The notes: a model not told the origin generated them from the letters alone. 40,725 nt of DNA from Candidatus Magasanikiibacteriota bacterium (GCA_943349075.1 CALQYY010000003.1:1-40725); one strand, 5' to 3'; positions 29,225 to 40,725 are shown, numbered from the stretch's first letter. Program-made: numbers and translations.

Positions 29225-29620
29225 ATGTCCTTTAAGAACACTCCAAACGTCTGGCGAGATTATAACACACAGCGAGAACGCAGGTATCACTACCTTCCAA
29301 AGCTCATTTCCGTCAGTCGCGGCTATCTTAAAGACAATCAGCGGGAAATTTTTGCCATCGTTGAAACTGTCGAACGGGCGCGTCAACTCAAGGCGCTTGG
29401 CCTTGCCCTTCTCGGCGAACAGCTCGACGCAGAAAAAAAACTTACCAAAGAAATTCGCTCCCTGATCGTTCTTTGCAAACACCATCCAGCGCTTCTAGCA
29501 AAAAACGCATACATGGATCTCGAGCACGAACTTCTCGATGCCGATGCGCACATGCACGCGCTCCACGCCTTACTCATCGGCTCCCAAAAACAGCCCTATG
29601 GAATCAGAACTCTTCACTAA
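29225..29620 (+). CDS. LemA-like soluble protein (tentative)
   Basis: YLPKLISVSRGYLKDNQREIFAIVETVERAR...ALLAKNAYMDLEHELLDADAHM resembles the LemA helical core; no obvious TM. Confidence 0.5.
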   Translation: MSFKNTPNVWRDYNTQRERRYHYLPKLISVSRGYLKDNQREIFAIVETVERARQLKALGLALLGEQLDAEKKLTKEIRSLIVLCKHHPALLAKNAYMDLEHELLDADAHMHALHALLIGSQKQPYGIRTLH

Positions 29621-32108
29621 CAAATCGACGTTTCATTTTCGAAACGTAATTGCACAAGCATTTCATCACGCAGCCCTCGCGGGAACAAAAGTGGTCACCC
29701 CACTTCATTTGTTATTAGCCCTCGTTCAAGAAACTGGCAGTATTGGCGAAGAGATTGTGCGTCGTGCAGGAGTTCGCCCTGATATGCTCGTCGCACTGCT
29801 AGCACTCGCCGATGTTGTTGAGCTAAATCGCAGCGCAGTTTTATCACCAACCTCAAAACGCGTCATTGAAAAAGCGGTGATGCGCGCAGCACAAGGCAAC
29901 CATTCGTACATTGGTACAGAACATTTGCTCCACGGCTTAATCGAAGCCGCGCTTCCGGAAATTGAAATTGTTTTTAAGAACCCTGCAGTCAAAGTGAAAG
30001 AGTTAACGCAACAGCTTGAAATCGCACTCAAAAGTGCTGGCAAACTTCCTGAGATGCTCTACCAAATCTGGGGAGAAAACCAAATCAAGCAAACATGGAA
30101 AGGCGCGCCCGACAAATCAAAAAAGTTGCCCGCACTTGAATATTTTGGAAACGAACTCACGAATGAAGCGCATGCCGCAAAACTCGATCCTGTGATTGGA
30201 CGTGATGAAGAAATTGAACGCATGATTCATATTCTTGCGCGTCGAACAAAAAACAATCCACTGCTTCTCGGAGAACCAGGCGTTGGAAAAACTGCGATTG
30301 TTGAAGGTCTTGCAAAACGTGTTTTGTCAGGACAGGTTCCACCACAACTACTCGGCAAACGAATTTTCGCGGTTGATCTTGGTCTCATGATTGCGGGCAC
30401 GATGTATCGCGGTGAATTTGAATCACGCATCAAACAATTAGTCGACGAAGTTCGCGCAAATCCTGATATCATTTTGTTCATCGATGAAATCCATTCGATT
30501 GTTGGTGCTGGCTCATCAAACGGCACACTCGATGCGGCAAATCTCTTAAAGCCAGCACTTGCCCGCGGTGAGCTTCGTGTCATTGGCGCAACAACATTCG
30601 ATGAATTCAAAAAACATATCGAGCACGATGCAGCGCTTGAGCGTCGATTTCAAACAGTGAGCGTTCGCGAACCATCAACTGAAGAAACAATTGAAATTTT
30701 GTCGCACATCAAAGGCCACTACGAACGATTCCATGGAATTTCGGTTGGGCCTGATGCAGTGCACGCAGCGGTGAATCTCGCACACAAATATTTTCCTGAG
30801 AAACGCTTTCCAGACAAAGCAATTGATTTGCTTGACGAAGCGATGAGCGCAGTTAAAGTACAAACAGCGAATGTTACAACAGCCGAACTTCAAAGCCAGC
30901 TCACACAATCGCTCAAAGAAGTTGTTGTGAAAAAACAAAAAGCAATTATCAAAGAGTCGTACGAAGAGGCGCAAAAACTCAAGGCCGAAGAGCAGCAAAT
31001 CGCACTGCAGTTGAATGCTATTTTAGATGACCAGAAAAACGCGGCTCCGCGCGGCGCTGTAACAGCTCAAGATATTCACGCTGTTATCGAGCGAATTCTT
31101 CGTCGCCCCATCAGCGAGCGCGAAACAATTGCGCCAAAAGAATCGCTTCATGCATTTTTGTCTGCACGCGTTTTTGGACAAGACGACGTTCTCACAACCG
31201 TCACACACGCAATCACCAAAGCGCGCCTTGGTCTGCACGAAGAAAACCGCCCGCTTGCATCATTTTTGTTTGTCGGCTCATCTGGTGTTGGAAAAACAGA
31301 ACTCGCAAAATTAATTGCAGCTGGCATTTATGGCGATCCAAAAGCGCTCATTCGCCTGGACATGACCGAATTTTCGGAAGGATTTTCTGTGTCAAAAATG
31401 ATGGGCTCCCCTGCGGGCTATGTTGGCTATCGCGAAGGAACAACAATTGTTGACCGCCTCCGCCGCCAACCGATGAGCGTTTTGCTTTTCGACGAAATCG
31501 ACAAAGCCCACCCCGATGTGCTCAATATTTTGTTGCAAATGCTTGAGGAGGGCCGCATCGCAGACGCAAGCGGCAAAGAAGCGTCGGTCAAACAATCGGT
31601 CATCATTCTCACCTACCAAATTGCGCCCGAAGAAATTACCGGCTCAAGTTTTGGATTTAGCTCGGATGCCGTTGTTCGTTCAAGCGATGCTGTTCGAGCG
31701 ACACTTTACAACAGCTTGAAACCAGAACTTCTCAACCGTATCGACAATGCGTGCGTATTCAAGCCACTTGATAATGACAGTTTAACCAAAATCGCCGTTA
31801 AACAATTGAACGATTTTACAACTCGCCTTCTCAAGCGATCAATCGTTTTGAATTGGGATGAAAAAGTCATTGAACTCATCACCGCAAAATCATCCGACAC
31901 CAAAGAAGGCGCGCGCAAAGTTCGCCACATCATCGAAAACGCAATTGAACAAAAATTGATTGCACATTTATCGATGAATCCAGACACATCTGAGTATCGG
32001 ATTGATACAAAAAATGATATACTGGGCGTCGAACCAATCTATGCCACAGTTCGTGGGAGCGCCTCTAAAACTAAATCCCGAACCAAACGACGAGTCTTAC
32101 AGGGCTAA
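29598..32108 (+). CDS. clpC: ATP-dependent Clp protease ATP-binding subunit, ClpC type
   Basis: N-domain, two Walker A (GEPGVGKT, GSSGVGKTE), short middle domain, FGF loop typical of ClpP-partner Clps. Confidence 0.92.
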   Translation: MESELFTNKSTFHFRNVIAQAFHHAALAGTKVVTPLHLLLALVQETGSIGEEIVRRAGVRPDMLVALLALADVVELNRSAVLSPTSKRVIEKAVMRAAQGNHSYIGTEHLLHGLIEAALPEIEIVFKNPAVKVKELTQQLEIALKSAGKLPEMLYQIWGENQIKQTWKGAPDKSKKLPALEYFGNELTNEAHAAKLDPVIGRDEEIERMIHILARRTKNNPLLLGEPGVGKTAIVEGLAKRVLSGQVPPQLLGKRIFAVDLGLMIAGTMYRGEFESRIKQLVDEVRANPDIILFIDEIHSIVGAGSSNGTLDAANLLKPALARGELRVIGATTFDEFKKHIEHDAALERRFQTVSVREPSTEETIEILSHIKGHYERFHGISVGPDAVHAAVNLAHKYFPEKRFPDKAIDLLDEAMSAVKVQTANVTTAELQSQLTQSLKEVVVKKQKAIIKESYEEAQKLKAEEQQIALQLNAILDDQKNAAPRGAVTAQDIHAVIERILRRPISERETIAPKESLHAFLSARVFGQDDVLTTVTHAITKARLGLHEENRPLASFLFVGSSGVGKTELAKLIAAGIYGDPKALIRLDMTEFSEGFSVSKMMGSPAGYVGYREGTTIVDRLRRQPMSVLLFDEIDKAHPDVLNILLQMLEEGRIADASGKEASVKQSVIILTYQIAPEEITGSSFGFSSDAVVRSSDAVRATLYNSLKPELLNRIDNACVFKPLDNDSLTKIAVKQLNDFTTRLLKRSIVLNWDEKVIELITAKSSDTKEGARKVRHIIENAIEQKLIAHLSMNPDTSEYRIDTKNDILGVEPIYATVRGSASKTKSRTKRRVLQG

Positions 32109-32480: not shown

Positions 32481-33740
32481 ATGGAAATCGAAAAAAAGAA
32501 ACTTTTAGCCGCAGCAGGAATCATACTCCTCACAACACTGCTTGGAATTCTTGTGTACAAAGTCTATTTTGCACCAGCGCCTGAGCAGCCAATTCCCGAA
32601 GACGTCTCTGGCGACATAACTCCAAATCAACTTACCGAATCCGATGCGCGCGACAAATCGATTGGTGTTGATGCGGGTGAACTTGCAAGCGGCTTTGAGC
32701 GACCACCGCTTGAGACTGCAGCGCAAGTAGTTCAAGGCGACGGCGGCCAAATCAACGTTGCAGTCACAACAGTCATTTCAAATCCGACAGCAGCGCTCAC
32801 CACCGGATCGAGCGATGGAACATTTCAATTTTACGACCGACTCGATGGACGTTTTTACAAAGCCGATGAAGACGGCAACAAAATTCCACTCTCGCAAGAA
32901 ATTTTTCCAGCAGTCCAAAGTGTAACGTGGGCACCAAACAAAACCATCGCCGCAATGACCTTTCCCGATGGAAAAAAGGCTGTCTATGATTTCAACGCAA
33001 AAAAACAATACTCGATTCCATCACACTGGAACGACGTAAATTTTTCGCCGGATTCAAAACAGATGGCGGGAAAAACAGATAGTCCTGATCCAAAACTTCG
33101 ATATTTGTTTACATCAAACATCGATGGAACAAACGCGCTTCCGATTGAACCGCTTGGCGAAAACGGCAACAAAGTAATTGTTAGCTGGTCACCCAACAAC
33201 CAAGTAATCGCGTTTTCTCGAACCGCTCCCGCGCTCGGCGGCGGTGGCGATCGTCAAGGCGTTTTGTTTATCGGAAAAAATGGCGAGAACTTCAGACAGC
33301 TCACCGTCGAAGGAATGGGCTTCCAACCAAGCTGGTCACCACAGGGCGATCGTGTGCTCTATAGCGCACACAACGGTTCGTCAGACCTAAAACCAACACT
33401 CTGGATTGATGGTGGTAGCGACGAAACAGTTGGTGCCGCAAAAAATTATTTAGGCATCGACACCTGGGCAAGTAAGTGCACTTTTTTGAACAACGATGAA
33501 GTTCTCTGTGCAGTTCCCGACCCTTCACGCTTGCTCCCTGGAATTGGATTTGCACCACAGCTTGCAACCAACACAAATGACACTGTCTACAAAGTTAACA
33601 TTCGCTCAGGCCTTCAAACAATTGTTGGAAAACCAGACGGCGATCACACCATCGACACACTTTCAGTTTCCGCAGACGGCACCAATCTTTTCATGAAAGA
33701 AAGCGGTTCTGGAGAAATTCTAAAAATGCAGCTCAAATAG
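32481..33740 (+). CDS. Membrane-anchored beta-propeller (TolB/WD40-like) protein
   Basis: N-terminal TM, repeated VTWAPN, NFSPDSKQ, VSWSPNNQ, PSWSPQGDRVLYSA blades. Confidence 0.8.
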   Translation: MEIEKKKLLAAAGIILLTTLLGILVYKVYFAPAPEQPIPEDVSGDITPNQLTESDARDKSIGVDAGELASGFERPPLETAAQVVQGDGGQINVAVTTVISNPTAALTTGSSDGTFQFYDRLDGRFYKADEDGNKIPLSQEIFPAVQSVTWAPNKTIAAMTFPDGKKAVYDFNAKKQYSIPSHWNDVNFSPDSKQMAGKTDSPDPKLRYLFTSNIDGTNALPIEPLGENGNKVIVSWSPNNQVIAFSRTAPALGGGGDRQGVLFIGKNGENFRQLTVEGMGFQPSWSPQGDRVLYSAHNGSSDLKPTLWIDGGSDETVGAAKNYLGIDTWASKCTFLNNDEVLCAVPDPSRLLPGIGFAPQLATNTNDTVYKVNIRSGLQTIVGKPDGDHTIDTLSVSADGTNLFMKESGSGEILKMQLK

Positions 33741-33741
33741 T

Positions 33742-34413
33742 ATGCAAAAGCACTGGCTACTTATTGCGATGGTTGCGATTATCACACTTTTTGTAGGTGG
33801 TGGAATAATCTACCAAATTACATCGTCCCGAACGCCAGTGTCCCAACCACAAGCAAAAGCTGCGCTCACCGAACCGACAATTAAAATCACCGACCCTCAA
33901 CGCGGAAATCAAAATGCCCCGCTTACCATTGTATATTTTAGCGATTTTGGGTGCGATAGTTGCGCGGGCGCGGACCCAATTCTTACAGCTCTTGAAAAAG
34001 AATTTCCAGACAAGATTCGTTTTGTTTGGAAAGATTTTCCAACGCACAAAAATATTTTTCCCGAATCATTTGAGATCCACAAAGCTGCACGCTGCGCCGC
34101 AACGCTCGGCAAATTTTGGGATTTTGAACGAACTGCTTTTTTGCATAACAGTGAGATTCGTTTGAATACCCCTATGCTGGACAAAATCATCACAGAATCC
34201 GGTCTGAGCACCAAAGCACTTGCTGAATGTATGAGTTCCCCAGCAGTCACTGGTGTCATCGAAGAAAATGTTGACGAAGGAAAGCGATTAGGAGTAACAG
34301 CGACACCGACTTTTTTTCTCAACAATATTCGATACGAAGGAGTTATGCCCTACTATCAATTCGCTGGAACTATTAGAAAAATGCTTGCGAAAATCGAATA
34401 TGACAAAAACTAG
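33742..34413 (+). CDS. DsbA-family thioredoxin-like oxidoreductase
   Basis: N-terminal TM, YFSDFGCDSCAGADP (CxxC), cis-Pro region VTATPTFFLN. Confidence 0.9.
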   Translation: MQKHWLLIAMVAIITLFVGGGIIYQITSSRTPVSQPQAKAALTEPTIKITDPQRGNQNAPLTIVYFSDFGCDSCAGADPILTALEKEFPDKIRFVWKDFPTHKNIFPESFEIHKAARCAATLGKFWDFERTAFLHNSEIRLNTPMLDKIITESGLSTKALAECMSSPAVTGVIEENVDEGKRLGVTATPTFFLNNIRYEGVMPYYQFAGTIRKMLAKIEYDKN

Positions 34414-34416
34414 CTT

Positions 34417-36606
34417 ATGAAAATCATTTTATTTTTTCTCGCAACACTTTTTTTCATTCCAACAAATGCGCATTCTGCAGGCCTCTTTGAGTCATGTAAT
34501 CCTTCGTTTTGCGACAGCGATCTGCAGTGTCCTGGATTTCAAATGTTTGGACAATCGCTCCAAAAAGAACAGAAATGTTGGCCGGAAAAAACATACAAAC
34601 CATGCGGATCAAGTGGTGATTGTAAAGCAATTGGCGATTGTGTTGTTGGAAATACCGTAGACACGGTCACCAGTCCTGTCGCATTTTGTATCGATAAAAA
34701 GTATTACCCACCCGGTGATAAAGGTGTTGCTATCCAGGATAAATGTATCTCGACAAAGAATTGTGGCGCTAACGAACAGTGTGTTCGAATAACTCGCTAC
34801 GACAAAGAGACCTTTGGAACAAGTGAGTTTGTACAAAATAACAACTGCGTTCCACTTTCCCAACTCCCAGCATCACTTGTTTTTAAAGACACAACGGGTA
34901 GCTGTGGGCAAAACCAACAATGTTCAACCGACGAAACATGCGTTGAAAATACCTACCTTGATATTGTTGCAAAAGCAGCCTACGTTCCACTTTCCGGCCT
35001 TCTTTCTTTTAAACAACCCGTTTGCTACAAAACAAAATATTTAGCTGGTTCGTGCAAAAACTATGGGGACACCTGCCAAGTTTCCGGAACTGGCACAGGA
35101 TACTGCATGAACACACTCGATGCAGGAAATGTTGTTCTCAAATGCATTGATGTCACCTACTTGCCAGGCGGCCCCTCAGCTCCATCAAATTATGCATGCA
35201 GCACTGATTCTCAGTGCAAAGGCTCCCCTGGTTACAACTATTGCCTCATCAATCCTGTCACAAACAAAGGAAATTGTTTTTCACAAAAAACAATTTTCTC
35301 AGACATGACAAAACTTCCGGACCCTACCTGCACATTAATTGGAAAACAGGGTTGTGAAGCAACTGGAAAAGAATCAATCTGCGCATCATATCCCGATAAA
35401 GCGACCGCTGTTTGCATTAATTACGCCGGAGGCGGTGCTGCACTATCAAGCGGAGCTGGAACAGCATCGCCGGATCCATCGCAACTTCCCGATCAAAATG
35501 TTGCGCAGCAAACCTACGAAGCTTACGCACCAAAACTTCAAATCGACATCCCAAACCTAACATTTGCTGAAAATATTACCGCTGTTGATGGGCCTGGAGG
35601 AATTAAATACTTCTCTGTTCCCTATCTTGCGTCTTACATCAACGCTGTTTATAAGTACGCACTCGGTCTTGGTGTTTTGATTGCTGTAATTATGCTCATG
35701 TATGCCGGATTTCGTTGGATGAGCTCATTCGGAAATACAAAAGCAATTGAAGAAGCAAAAACAATGGTTGGAAATTCCGTCTTCGGCCTCGTACTTTTGT
35801 TCGCAGCATTCACCATCCTCTACTACATAAACCCAGAGCTGCCGAAATTATCTGCACTTCAGATTTTTGCACCAAAACAGGAAGCCTTCAAAAATCCAGC
35901 AGAAGAAAACCAGGATGGTAGTGGTGTAACAGGGTCGGTATCTTCTATTGGCACCCCTCCCGGCGTTTCCACCGCTTTATGCGAAGAAAACAAAGCACTC
36001 CCTCTTAATCCACTCGCAACACCTTTTAAAAATAAGGATTATTTTGCGTGCAAATACACAAAAAAGAGAAACATTAAGAATATTTCTCTTGTAATTATTC
36101 ACGAAGGAGGTTCAAATGCCAACGCAACAGCAGATATTTGGATAAAACGAAGCATGGATCTGAATTATGCAATCGGAGCACATTACGCAATCAACAAAGA
36201 CGGTACTATTGTTCAGTATGTGCCGGAAGATCTAATTGCAAACCATACACCAGGCGGTGGTAATGGAAATGCAAATAATTATTCAATTGGAATCGATTTG
36301 GCTATTCCAAATTGTTCGCAATCAGCAGCTTCTTGTAAACCAGACAGTGCGGGTTATAAGTGCATGAAATATACAGACGCACAATACGAAGCCCTAAAAA
36401 AATTACTTAAGGATATTTCTTCTCGAACCAAGGTTACTTACGATGACGACCACATCATTCAACATTGTGAGGTGTGTGACGCATCACACTGCGATGCACG
36501 TGGCTTAGACTGGTCAAAACTAGGATTAACACAATTAAAACATCGTACAGCAGATGGTACCTGTATCAAGCGCTGGACAACTAAAGCTGGTGGCTGCACC
36601 CAATGA
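34417..36606 (+). CDS. Cys-rich/VirB2-like pilin TM module fused to N-acetylmuramoyl-L-alanine amidase (Amidase_2-like)
   Basis: Signal peptide; Cys-rich region; YKYALGLGVLIAVIMLMYAGFRWMSSFGNTKAIEEAKTMVGNSVFGLVLLFAAFTILYYINP; LVIIHEGG, HYAINKDGTIVQYVPEDLIANHTPG, YSIGIDL. Confidence 0.8.
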   Translation: MKIILFFLATLFFIPTNAHSAGLFESCNPSFCDSDLQCPGFQMFGQSLQKEQKCWPEKTYKPCGSSGDCKAIGDCVVGNTVDTVTSPVAFCIDKKYYPPGDKGVAIQDKCISTKNCGANEQCVRITRYDKETFGTSEFVQNNNCVPLSQLPASLVFKDTTGSCGQNQQCSTDETCVENTYLDIVAKAAYVPLSGLLSFKQPVCYKTKYLAGSCKNYGDTCQVSGTGTGYCMNTLDAGNVVLKCIDVTYLPGGPSAPSNYACSTDSQCKGSPGYNYCLINPVTNKGNCFSQKTIFSDMTKLPDPTCTLIGKQGCEATGKESICASYPDKATAVCINYAGGGAALSSGAGTASPDPSQLPDQNVAQQTYEAYAPKLQIDIPNLTFAENITAVDGPGGIKYFSVPYLASYINAVYKYALGLGVLIAVIMLMYAGFRWMSSFGNTKAIEEAKTMVGNSVFGLVLLFAAFTILYYINPELPKLSALQIFAPKQEAFKNPAEENQDGSGVTGSVSSIGTPPGVSTALCEENKALPLNPLATPFKNKDYFACKYTKKRNIKNISLVIIHEGGSNANATADIWIKRSMDLNYAIGAHYAINKDGTIVQYVPEDLIANHTPGGGNGNANNYSIGIDLAIPNCSQSAASCKPDSAGYKCMKYTDAQYEALKKLLKDISSRTKVTYDDDHIIQHCEVCDASHCDARGLDWSKLGLTQLKHRTADGTCIKRWTTKAGGCTQ

Positions 36607-38966
36607 AAATAAACACAACCGGTATGAACAAAATTAACACAAACAAAAGAACTCTTCGTTTAGATTTTGGTTATATCGTACTGAGCGTTTTTTCATTTAT
36701 CATTTTTTCGGCCATCCCTTCAATCGCAGCAGCTGAAATACTCCCTGGCCAACCGCTTGGTGCTTGTAAGACAGGACTTTTAACAATCTCTTGCCCAGGC
36801 GAACAAGATTGTTGGGATATAAAATCTTTCAAAACAAGCAACGTAATAGCCCCTCCAACGGAAACCATGTGCTTGCCTCGAGCTAACTACCCTTTTTGCA
36901 CAAAATTTGATGACACTTTGTGTGAGAATAGCAGCGGTGGAACGGATCAATGTGTTGCTGTAAGTTCAGTTGCAGATCCGACACTTTACGGAATGACCTG
37001 TCTTTCAAAAAACCTTGTTCCACAAGAAAAAACATCAGTCGATGCGAATTGTGGAACCTGCGGTCTTTACCAGCAGTGCGTATATGTTATCCCGAACAAC
37101 ACAGATGTTTGGCCAAAAAAACGATGCATAAACAAAGATTCGCTCCCTCCTGCTGTAATTGAAGCAGATGGAACATGCCAAACAAATGCATCATGTGCGG
37201 CAGATGAAATGTGTATTTTCAATACATTTGAGCCGCAAAAATACGGTTTCAGCTGTGTTAAAAAAGCGTTTATTACAGAATCACCGAGCTGCCCTGCTGC
37301 AAGTAAGAACGAGCTTTACAACATCAAGGCTGGGATATCGTGTGGCAATCCAGGCGAAACAAAAACATGCGTGTACGCGATTCCTGGATACAAAGGTCCG
37401 AAACCATTTACCGTTGGGTATCGCTGCGTCGACTTCTCAAAAATTGCAGGCGGTCAAAACGCTCCATCAGCTGAAACATGCACAAACGATGCTGACTGTA
37501 CGGTCAAAAATCCAGAAAACCCCTACTGCATTGCAAATCCTGTAACGAAAAAAAGCCAGTGCTTCAGTCAGTCAGCAATTTTTACAGACATGAAAACAAT
37601 TGCTTCTGCTACCCCACAATGTGGTACAGGAGTAAACGCAAAAGATTGCAAATGCCCTGCGTCTGAAATTCCAAAATGTGCGCCCGGCAATGATGCGGCA
37701 AATTCAATATGCGCAACATATGTAGGTGATGGAAAAATTTTTGGACAAATCGCCTGCATCAACAGTGGAAACTTGGGCTCAGGAGGTGCAACAATTACAT
37801 ACAGTGACACAAAGCAGAATATTCAAAAGCAGACATACACCACGTTTGCACCAAAAATCCAAGTCGATATTCCCGGCCTTACTTTTGATGGGACCGTTGA
37901 AGCGACAGACAATGCCTCAGGTCAAAAAAACTTTTCATTGCCTTACATTGCAACCTACATCAACGCTGTGTATAAATATGCAATCGGCCTCGGAACACTC
38001 TTTGCAATTATCACCATCATGTATGGTGGTTTGCGATGGATGACGTCGTTTGGAAACACAAAAGCTGTAAGCGAAGCAAAAGGCGCGATCGGAAATGCTG
38101 TTGGAGGCCTTGTCTTACTTGTTGGTGTTTACACAATTCTCACAATCATCAACCCAGGAATGACGAACCTGAAAAACATTGAGATAATGGCACCAAAACA
38201 AGAAGAGTTTCAGATGGCTGAACCGGACGAACCTGATGAAAACGTCGCAACTGTTGACGCGTCTGGAGCTCCAATTCCTGGAAGCACAAAAAAAATCCGT
38301 CTGTGCAACTCGTTTGATAGCTGTCAAAAACTATGCACAGCCGGTGGTGTAAATGTTTCTGCAATGAATGCTGCGATTCAAGCAAGTGGACTCACACCGC
38401 CGAACAATTTGATTGATCCGCGCACAGCGCTGTCTACCTATTTTAGCAATTGTGCAAGCGGCACAAACCCCGACACAAAATACACGAACTGCGGCGTTGT
38501 TTTCCGAGGTGACGACAAAGAGACCCGTGTTCTACCTTCAGTTGTTAAGGGAATTGCAGATGCTGCAAAAATCGCAAACGAAGCGGGATATGTTTTGAGC
38601 ATTGGCTCATCGTATCGCTCCCCTGAAAAACAGGTTGCAAAAGTCTGTACAAAAATGACAAAAATTCCAGCAGGGACATCTCCGTGCGGCCCAGAACTTG
38701 CATGTCCTGGAGGCAGTAATCACGGAAACGGGTTTGCAATCGATGTTTGTCTTGCAAAAAAAGATGCTCCAACAAAATGTCTAACCCCACCAACGGGTTC
38801 AGCAGATACGTGCGCAAATAATACACAAAAAGTTCTTGCGAGTACCGAACTTAAAATTCTTAACGACACACTTTTTAAGGCTGGTTGGTATAAATATTGC
38901 AAAGAACTCTGGCACTTTGAATACACCTCACAACCTGTTGATGGTTTCCGGACAAAATCGTATTGA
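36603..38966 (+). CDS. Paralogous Cys-rich/VirB2-like pilin TM module fused to M15 D-Ala-D-Ala carboxypeptidase
   Basis: TM module closely resembles previous gene; SNHGNGFAID (SxHxxGxAxD) and ELWHFEY M15 zinc motifs; ATGA overlap with upstream stop. Confidence 0.82.
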   Translation: MKINTTGMNKINTNKRTLRLDFGYIVLSVFSFIIFSAIPSIAAAEILPGQPLGACKTGLLTISCPGEQDCWDIKSFKTSNVIAPPTETMCLPRANYPFCTKFDDTLCENSSGGTDQCVAVSSVADPTLYGMTCLSKNLVPQEKTSVDANCGTCGLYQQCVYVIPNNTDVWPKKRCINKDSLPPAVIEADGTCQTNASCAADEMCIFNTFEPQKYGFSCVKKAFITESPSCPAASKNELYNIKAGISCGNPGETKTCVYAIPGYKGPKPFTVGYRCVDFSKIAGGQNAPSAETCTNDADCTVKNPENPYCIANPVTKKSQCFSQSAIFTDMKTIASATPQCGTGVNAKDCKCPASEIPKCAPGNDAANSICATYVGDGKIFGQIACINSGNLGSGGATITYSDTKQNIQKQTYTTFAPKIQVDIPGLTFDGTVEATDNASGQKNFSLPYIATYINAVYKYAIGLGTLFAIITIMYGGLRWMTSFGNTKAVSEAKGAIGNAVGGLVLLVGVYTILTIINPGMTNLKNIEIMAPKQEEFQMAEPDEPDENVATVDASGAPIPGSTKKIRLCNSFDSCQKLCTAGGVNVSAMNAAIQASGLTPPNNLIDPRTALSTYFSNCASGTNPDTKYTNCGVVFRGDDKETRVLPSVVKGIADAAKIANEAGYVLSIGSSYRSPEKQVAKVCTKMTKIPAGTSPCGPELACPGGSNHGNGFAIDVCLAKKDAPTKCLTPPTGSADTCANNTQKVLASTELKILNDTLFKAGWYKYCKELWHFEYTSQPVDGFRTKSY

Positions 38967-38999: not shown

Positions 39000-40340
39000 A
39001 TGTTTCTTTGCTCAGCCTGTAATTCAAAATCTCAAAAATGGTCTGGAAAGTGTCTCTCCTGTAGCGCATGGAGCACGCTTTCTGAAATTCCTGACGAACC
39101 CAAAAAGAAATCGGGAGGATCTTCAGGACGCGCAGCTGTGCACGCTGAAACAATTGTTTTAAATAATCACGCAGCAACAGCCGTTGCACACAAACGCCTC
39201 TCAACGGGCGCTGCGGTTGTTGATGAAATTTTGGGCGGTGGAATCGTCCCCGGATCGCTCATCTTGCTCGCGGGCGAGCCTGGAATCGGAAAATCAACGA
39301 TCGTCATGCAGTTTGCTGTCGCAGCACGCGGCGTTTTATATATATCGGGAGAAGAATCGGCCGACCAGGTCGGTCTGCGTTTGAAACGCCTCGACAAAGA
39401 AAAAAAATCTAACGTCTCTTTTGTTGGAACGACCGATTTTGAAACCGTCGACGCTGCAATTCGAACACAAAAACCAACGCTCGCCATCATCGACTCCGTC
39501 CAAACCATGCGCCACCCCGATGTCGCAGGCGAACCGGGCGGCGTTGCGCAGGTGCGCGCAATTGCGAATGCTTTGATGGAGCTTGCAAATCAAACAGGCG
39601 TTCCCGTCATTTTGATCGGACACGTAACAAAAGACGGCTCCGTTGCAGGACCGAAAACACTCGAGCATTTAGTTGACGTTGTTCTCTCGCTTGAAGGAGA
39701 ACGAACAGACAGACTTCGCTTCCTTCGGTGCTTCAAAAACCGATTTGGCCCAACTGACGAAGTCGCCGTTCTTGAGATGCTCGAAAGCGGTTTGCAGCCC
39801 GTAGCAGACCCGTCAGGGCTCTTGCTTGAAGAACGTTCACTTCCTGTCCCGGGAACCGTTGTGACGTGTCTCATGGACGGAAATCGTCCGCTTCTCGTTG
39901 AAATTCAAGCGCTCACCACAAAAACAACATTCGGATTCCCCCAGCGCCGCGCGCAAGGCGTTGATTCAGCGCGTCTTCAGATACTTCTCGCAGTTTTAGG
40001 GCGCCGCATGGGGCTTCCTGTCGATCAATATGACGTGTTTGTAAACGTCGTCGGCGGCATCTCCGCAGACGAACCCGCTGCCGACCTCGCAATTTGCATG
40101 GCAATCGCATCCTCAATTTCCGAAAAAACAATTCCACAAACCGTAACTGCTTTTGGCGAAGTCGGTCTTTCGGGTGAAATTCGCCGCGTCAAAAATTCCG
40201 ACAAACGCCTCAAAGAAGCTGAGCGTCAGGGATTCAAATTCGCACTCGTTCCAACGGCAAAAAATATGCCTCAAATGAAAACATTAAAGTTGGCACCAAT
40301 CGCCGACATTCGTTCTGTTCTCGAAAAAATCGACAAATAA
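39000..40340 (+). CDS. radA: DNA repair protein RadA
   Basis: CSACNSKSQKWSGKCLSC zinc finger, GEPGIGKST Walker A, KNRFG motif, Lon-like C-terminus. Confidence 0.96.
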   Translation: MFLCSACNSKSQKWSGKCLSCSAWSTLSEIPDEPKKKSGGSSGRAAVHAETIVLNNHAATAVAHKRLSTGAAVVDEILGGGIVPGSLILLAGEPGIGKSTIVMQFAVAARGVLYISGEESADQVGLRLKRLDKEKKSNVSFVGTTDFETVDAAIRTQKPTLAIIDSVQTMRHPDVAGEPGGVAQVRAIANALMELANQTGVPVILIGHVTKDGSVAGPKTLEHLVDVVLSLEGERTDRLRFLRCFKNRFGPTDEVAVLEMLESGLQPVADPSGLLLEERSLPVPGTVVTCLMDGNRPLLVEIQALTTKTTFGFPQRRAQGVDSARLQILLAVLGRRMGLPVDQYDVFVNVVGGISADEPAADLAICMAIASSISEKTIPQTVTAFGEVGLSGEIRRVKNSDKRLKEAERQGFKFALVPTAKNMPQMKTLKLAPIADIRSVLEKIDK

Positions 40341-40341
40341 C

Positions 40342-40725
40342 TTATTCTCGATGGAGTTCCATTTCAAAACGCTCAAGTTGTTTTTTGAGTAGCGGATATT
40401 TTTCGAGCAATGCTGAATCACCAACGATTTTTTCAGCAGAATCTTTTGCGTATTCCCAAATATCGAGTGAAATTTCACGCAAAAATTCAATATCAGAAAA
40501 ACCAGATTGCACCGTTCCCCACATATCGCCTGCACCACGCATTTCAAGATCTTTTTCCGCAAGCACAAAACCGTCGGTTGTTTTTGTCATCAGCTCCAGC
40601 CGTTTTTTTGCCGTTTCACCTTGCGTTTTCGAAAACAAAAAACAATACGACTGCTGACTTCCGCGCCCAACGCGCCCACGAAACTGATGCAGCTGCGCGA
40701 GCCCGAATCGCTCCGCACCCTCGAT
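40342..40725 (-). CDS. recG: ATP-dependent DNA helicase RecG, C-terminal portion (5' part outside window)
   Basis: Reverse strand reads IEGAERFGLAQLHQFRGRVGRGSQQSYCFLFSKTQG...EKDLEMRGAGDMWGTVQSG. Confidence 0.9.
   Translation of the reverse strand: MEGAERFGLAQLHQFRGRVGRGSQQSYCFLFSKTQGETAKKRLELMTKTTDGFVLAEKDLEMRGAGDMWGTVQSGFSDIEFLREISLDIWEYAKDSAEKIVGDSALLEKYPLLKKQLERFEMELHRE

Follow-up and report, generated by a model that had tools for sequence, protein, structure and literature searches.

Patescibacteria are ultrasmall bacteria, and their cultured members live on other cells. In the sole species tested genetically, their type IV secretion system (T4SS) is reported to be essential (PMC12102498, PMC12857230). 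All known Gram-positive homologues of VirB1 are membrane-anchored and carry extracellular enzyme domains (PMC12857230). A survey of Patescibacteria found VirB1 to be scarce, most genomes with VirB2 lacking it, and concluded that the VirB2 pilus seems not to need VirB1 (PMC12102498). The nearest published idea to the proteins described below is that of modular type IV pilins, which belong to a different pilin family (PMC8179133). Here we analyze a window of 40,725 nucleotides, the entire 40.7-kb contig C3 (CALQYY010000003.1) of a Candidatus Magasanikiibacteriota genome (GCA_943349075.1), in which two adjacent genes encode P1 and P2, proteins that combine a VirB2-like pilin hairpin with two different C-terminal heads resembling peptidoglycan hydrolases. 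The genome (727 kb, 53 contigs, about 88% complete) is one that we take to belong to class ABY1 of the Patescibacteria, in which T4SS loci are reported to have comF/recG/radA surroundings (PMC12102498); the named relatives sharing the locus are Candidatus Magasanikbacteria.

Results

Architecture of P1 and P2

The two proteins are built from the following parts.

34417..36606, + strand: P1, putative pilin-anchored amidase, 729 amino acids
34417..34479, + strand: P1 signal-peptide-like hydrophobic N-terminus, residues 1-21
34495..35415, + strand: P1 Cys-rich ectodomain, residues 27-333, 28 Cys
35623..35829, + strand: P1 VirB2-like two-helix hairpin, residues 403-471 (T4SS_pilin, E 2.3e-8)
36079..36477, + strand: P1 Amidase_2 head, residues 555-687 (E 7.6e-19; AmpD match; LysC-endolysin-amidase-like fold)
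36603..38966, + strand: P2, pilin-anchored D,D-/L,D-carboxypeptidase-like protein, 787 amino acids
36765..37757, + strand: P2 Cys-rich ectodomain, residues 55-385, 30 Cys
37941..38150, + strand: P2 VirB2-like hairpin, residues 447-516 (T4SS_pilin, E 2.5e-6)
38547..38927, + strand: P2 VanY/M15 head, residues 649-775, with M15 H...A.D and ExWHF motifs (E 7.5e-5)

The open reading frames are exactly those of a preliminary description of this DNA, which had listed adjacent proteins of 729 and 787 amino acids sharing a signal peptide, a Cys-rich ectodomain and a two-transmembrane segment. That layout is present in both, P2 beginning, like P1, with a hydrophobic N-terminus, and their genes share 4 overlapping bases. 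The predicted topology is a hydrophobic N-terminus plus two transmembrane stretches, modeled by AlphaFold as confident hairpins (predicted local distance difference test, pLDDT, about 80-96, and mostly 84-96 in P1) with helices at residues 403-435 and 441-471 in P1 and 447-480 and 486-516 in P2; for the whole proteins the confidence is modest (predicted template modeling score, pTM, 0.37-0.38).

All the cysteines lie in the domains flanking the hairpin: P1 has 38 (28 and 10), with a Cys-free stretch between residues 333 and 522, and P2 has 42 (30 and 12), with a Cys-free stretch between residues 385 and 568. From 85 loci of the class we extracted 136 proteins in which the hairpin is followed by a tail of 90 amino acids or more, and in these the cysteine share is 4.9% in the N-terminal part, 0.13% in the hairpin and 4.0% in the tail. 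Because cysteines are confined to the flanks and a DsbA-like gene lies directly upstream, the distribution fits a predicted topology with both flanking domains outside and oxidized, in agreement with the earlier proposal that the Cys-rich and enzyme domains are both external. The DsbA-like neighbor is probably the disulfide catalyst for the Cys-rich domains. An assembly or frameshift artifact was rejected as the origin of the fusions, since these 136 open fusions across 85 loci are comparable.

Enzyme heads and their exchange

Pfam and fold agree that the two C-termini resemble different enzymes, as had been suggested, namely an Amidase_2-like amidase in P1 (68.8 bits, cut-off 26) and an M15 carboxypeptidase in P2, where VanY falls just under its Pfam cut-off (23.0 vs 25 bits). 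The modeled P1 head resembles LysC endolysin amidases, and that of P2 finds VanX, BaLdcB and VanY as top solved structures with a Foldseek probability of 1.00; searching solved structures by sequence with just the P2 head gave no match. The M15 motifs of P2 read SNHGNGFAID and ELWHFE. Catalytic residues are conserved in the M15 and Amidase_2 alignments, to which this statement refers (SLT and C39 heads were looked at partially): all 22 aligned M15 heads keep the motif residues H, D, E and H, and 7/7 Amidase_2 heads keep the His and the HCE..H.D residues.

The anchor was found in 378 of 381 genomes in a class-wide search. Four other genomes from this genus or family have the same anchor in the same genomic slot, with other heads: Amidase_2 in G005, C39_2 and a sub-threshold NlpC/P60-like domain in G002, SLT and C39_2 in G003, and SLT together with a head lacking a family assignment in G004. 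Among the 136 tails, Pfam matches at E<=0.01, where a single tail may match several families, were to Peptidase_M15 (17), M23 (14), VanY (14), SLT (13), C39_2 (11), Amidase_2 (7), M15_4 (7), NlpC/P60 (6), glucosaminidase (5) and GH18 (1), as well as to GDSL lipase (3) and FGE-sulfatase (2), which are not wall hydrolases. By cluster, wall hydrolases make up about 88 of the 136. This hidden Markov model search for the same scaffold with other C-terminal domains thus places no fewer than eight hydrolase families that are unrelated to one another (M15, M23, SLT, C39, Amidase_2, NlpC/P60, glucosaminidase and GH18) on one anchor.

The heads differ in 9 of 14 cross-locus pairs whose anchors are at least 70% identical, some of the nine involving unassigned head clusters; examples are SLT versus M15 at 86% anchor identity and C39 versus Amidase_2 at 71%. 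On an anchor tree of 111 proteins with 12 head states we count 65 head changes, compared with 68-80 for shuffled labels and a possible minimum of 11, a rough count given that the tree is a quick one built on about 115 columns. Comparison among relatives shows the heads, as classified from their sequences, to be exchangeable cassettes replaced between close relatives, and bears out the claim of interchangeable, putatively wall-cutting heads on a pilin-like scaffold. A separate question was whether tandem copies are selected for different heads: 27 of 28 multi-copy loci differ, random draws from the head frequencies give an estimated ~24 of 28, and such selection is not claimed.

In a phylum-wide sample, 79 of 153 genomes match the anchor. 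Since pilin-hydrolase fusions recur among 20 further loci beyond the class (chosen for long reading frames), with SLT, C39, M15, Amidase_2 or SLT plus Amidase_2 heads, the predicted architecture extends past the class. One of these (L219, 2829-4646) has two heads in one tail, SLT and then Amidase_2. In a single protein (L161, 5044-6609) the pilin anchor is linked with a chitinase-like domain of family GH18 (E 3e-22), the sole one seen, and two others (L135, 4688-6445; L165, 3924-5810) have tails matching FGE-sulfatase instead of a wall hydrolase.

Kinship of the anchor

The transmembrane segment is related to VirB2-like pilins, as had been supposed: the Pfam T4SS_pilin profile (PF18895) scores 34.4 bits in P1 and 27.9 bits in P2 against a cut-off of 26.6, and a profile of eight anchors aligns with one built from 21 short pilins of the arrays in sister genomes at an hhalign probability of 98.9% (E 1.7e-17), the match running over the motif AGF.WMT..G..K.V..AK. 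The match to TrbC/VirB2 (PF04956) is sub-threshold, at 15.8 bits vs 27.9. Conserved flanks specific to the anchor, P.L.I.IP.L.F before the hairpin and INP.L..L after it, are both absent from the array pilins, and the fusion anchor is on this account classed as a distinct subfamily. The nearest plasmid match, also the closest outside the phylum, is an Mbov_0395-family pilin-like conjugal transfer protein of Pontibacillus (NZ_CP062975.1, 352071-352223), which conflicts with the view of Gram-positive T4SSs as devoid of VirB2-like proteins.

With the hairpin, Foldseek returned no VirB2 pilin, its weak matches being generic helical hairpins, and so the hairpin structure speaks neither for nor against the name pilin. 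In a sequence search the anchor profile matched no solved structure, a phage search was likewise negative, and no Pfam or NCBIfam model of the N-terminal type IV pilin motif matched P1 or P2.

Short T4SS pilin arrays are present in sister genomes (L054, L055, L056, L057 and L058), where by eye they adjoin genes for an extracytoplasmic function (ECF) sigma factor and a solute-binding protein; none was found in the window's own, ~88% complete genome. That genome carries further pilin-anchored proteins. On contig C10 (L008, 785-11873), tandem proteins of 625 and 3074 amino acids each have a signal peptide and an N-terminal T4SS_pilin hairpin followed by very long, partly Cys-rich extracellular regions, and pairs of roughly similar size occur in several sister genomes. 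On contig C16 (L009, 302-3768), a third kind, of 911 amino acids and with no enzyme recognized by eye, follows a DsbA-like gene of its own that has CPFS at the active site instead of CxxC; this kind is conserved in sister genomes (L059-L062).

The homology of the hairpin with array pilins, together with the arrays themselves, raises the possibility that P1 and P2 are true minor pilins, the hairpin being drawn into a T4SS pilus alongside array pilins so that the enzyme, displayed along the filament or at its tip, cuts the host wall on contact. There is a precedent in modular type IV pilins, onto which functional domains are grafted (PMC8179133), and the turnover of heads among close relatives would suit changing targets. 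We nevertheless regard incorporation of this kind as unlikely. P1 and P2 exceed the small-pilin plan of a signal peptide and two transmembrane helices, and packing would be hampered by the large folded domains that flank the hairpin; the P.L.I.IP.L.F motif and the segment following the hairpin, which array pilins lack, point to a specialized anchor, and we found no publication describing an assembled T4SS pilus from this phylum.

The genomic slot and its linkage to virB4 in relatives

The neighbors of P1 and P2 in the window are these.

29538..32108, + strand: ClpB/ClpA-type AAA+ protein, conserved upstream neighbor (ClpB-like within 4 kb at 41 of 85 class loci)
32481..33740, + strand: TolB-like beta-propeller with N-terminal transmembrane segment, conserved slot neighbor (PD40; TIGR02800 sub-threshold)
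33742..34413, + strand: DsbA-like thioredoxin, membrane-anchored, CDSC motif (Thioredoxin_4 E 8e-23, DSBA E 1.5e-11)
39000..40340, + strand: RadA-like protein, conserved downstream neighbor (within 4 kb at 61 of 85 class loci)
40342..40725, - strand: RecG C-terminal fragment, truncated by the contig end, which falls inside recG

The conserved order of the slot is ClpB, TolB-like, DsbA-like, one to four fusions, RadA and RecG. Within 4 kb of a fusion at the 85 class loci we find TolB-like and DsbA-like genes 64 times each, radA 61, recG 44 and ClpB-like 41 times, and the 66 loci judged to be this slot hold one fusion gene (33), two (27), three (4) or four (2). Surroundings of comF, recG and radA have been reported for the T4SS loci of ABY1 (PMC12102498). 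In 19 genomes, picked for large contigs, virB4 shares a contig with the slot (or with the top anchor match); their distance is below 20 kb (4-18 kb) in 13, ~30-33 kb in two and at least 36 kb in four. Given how these genomes were chosen, a binomial value for the linkage is indicative at most. In G004 the order past the slot is radA, recG, a comF-like gene, a 196-amino-acid gene, virB4, TrsD-like, PrgI/VirB3-like and two large unassigned genes.

Several observations weigh against tying the fusions to the T4SS. In four same-contig genomes virB4 lies more than 35 kb from the slot, and the genome of the window itself has its matching virB4 cluster on contig C15, apart from the fusions on C3. Co-absence of virB4 and the fusions was dropped as a test, as nearly every genome of the class has both, which leaves their co-occurrence without power. 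No role in secretion is known for ClpB, RadA and RecG, which the slot also holds, and to about one third of the tails no wall enzyme is assigned. The housekeeping genes in the slot, the need of walled cells for wall turnover and the mutual substitutability of many enzyme types, which could make head exchange near neutral, would also suit ordinary autolysins that serve the cell itself as it grows and divides, with the pilin-derived hairpin as a mere anchor and no part in secretion. We judge this improbable, as it is at odds with the linkage to virB4, with the specific derivation of the anchor from the T4SS pilin family, and with the DsbA-like neighbor and long Cys-rich domains, which suggest a surface-exposed role.

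Discussion

The explanation that we favor, and consider rather probable, is that P1 and P2 are membrane-anchored peptidoglycan hydrolases doing the job of VirB1 for the Patescibacteria T4SS on a VirB2-derived anchor. In its favor are the kinship of the anchor with T4SS pilins, the range of wall-hydrolase families joined to it, the catalytic motifs retained in the M15 and Amidase_2 heads, the conservation of the slot and its nearness to virB4 in relatives, the conjugation protein as closest match outside the phylum, the membrane-anchored form of Gram-positive VirB1 proteins and the scarcity of VirB1 in Patescibacteria. A Sec signal peptide would export the Cys-rich N-terminal domain, which the neighboring DsbA-like protein would probably oxidize. 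The VirB2-like hairpin would anchor the protein in the cytoplasmic membrane, exposing a short loop to the cytoplasm and leaving both the Cys-rich domain and the C-terminal enzyme outside. There, the wall would be cut locally at the T4SS, the amidase removing stem peptides and the M15 peptidase trimming them. The head is an exchangeable cassette, swapped between close relatives for other wall-cutting folds, and the fusions would supply the missing VirB1 activity in several chemistries.

The comparison establishes the domain content, the conservation of catalytic residues, the exchange of heads, the conserved slot and, in relatives, the linkage to virB4, whereas enzymatic activity, oxidation by the DsbA-like protein, a place and a function in a working T4SS, the identity of the wall attacked, including a host's, and any presence in a pilus beyond that of a plain membrane anchor are inferred. 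Head exchange among close relatives fits a changing target, the host wall; alternatively, it could reflect redundancy among enzymes that cut the cell's own wall. Taken furthest, the T4SS pilus or pseudopilus of Patescibacteria would bear interchangeable wall-cutting enzymes as a modular "drill", with heads swapped as the host wall changes, an idea that we put forward tentatively and hold to be rather doubtful.

Most genomes are reported to lack the wall-opening component of the Patescibacteria T4SS, and no task is known for the pilins of this system. If the assignment to VirB1 function is true, conserved, virB4-linked, pilin-anchored hydrolases fill this gap with testable proteins, and the head type is a possible readout of the wall attacked. 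The fusions may be the means by which Patescibacteria open a cell wall, their own or the host's, at the point of contact. The main text of the 2025 T4SS survey, supplements aside, makes no mention of amidases or enzyme-fused pilins (PMC12102498), and a targeted literature search, with most subscription papers and preprints outside its scope and its absence of hits being no proof, found no description of pilin-hydrolase fusions.

The VirB2-like pilins and arrays of Patescibacteria (PF18895) share the homologous two-helix segment and a signal-peptide-like N-terminus with P1 and P2 but are about 100-150 amino acids long, with neither an enzyme nor a long ectodomain. AmpD- and endolysin-type amidases and the VanX/VanY/LdcB peptidases have the head folds and catalytic residues in common with them, yet are free or simply anchored, without a pilin segment. 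In modular type IV pilins, such as PilB of Streptococcus sanguinis, a pilin module is likewise grafted to diverse functional modules (PMC8179133), although the pilin family and machine are unrelated, being those of type IV pili, with a class III signal peptide and a single N-terminal helix. Gram-positive VirB1-type hydrolases (PrgK, TraG of pIP501 and Orf14 of Tn916) are membrane-anchored extracellular wall hydrolases, as we propose for P1 and P2, and are linked to T4SS genes of the MPF_FATA/MPF_FA type; fusions lie with T4SS genes in relatives, and P1 and P2 are on another contig than virB4. The VirB1-homologous SLT/muramidase domain is absent from P1 (Amidase_2) and P2 (M15) and is found only in sibling proteins. 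Unlike the Gram-positive enzymes, which carry sets of SLT/muramidase and CHAP domains (PMC12857230), the fusions usually bear one highly exchangeable head, drawn from at least eight families, on a VirB2-like hairpin anchor with a Cys-rich domain in front.

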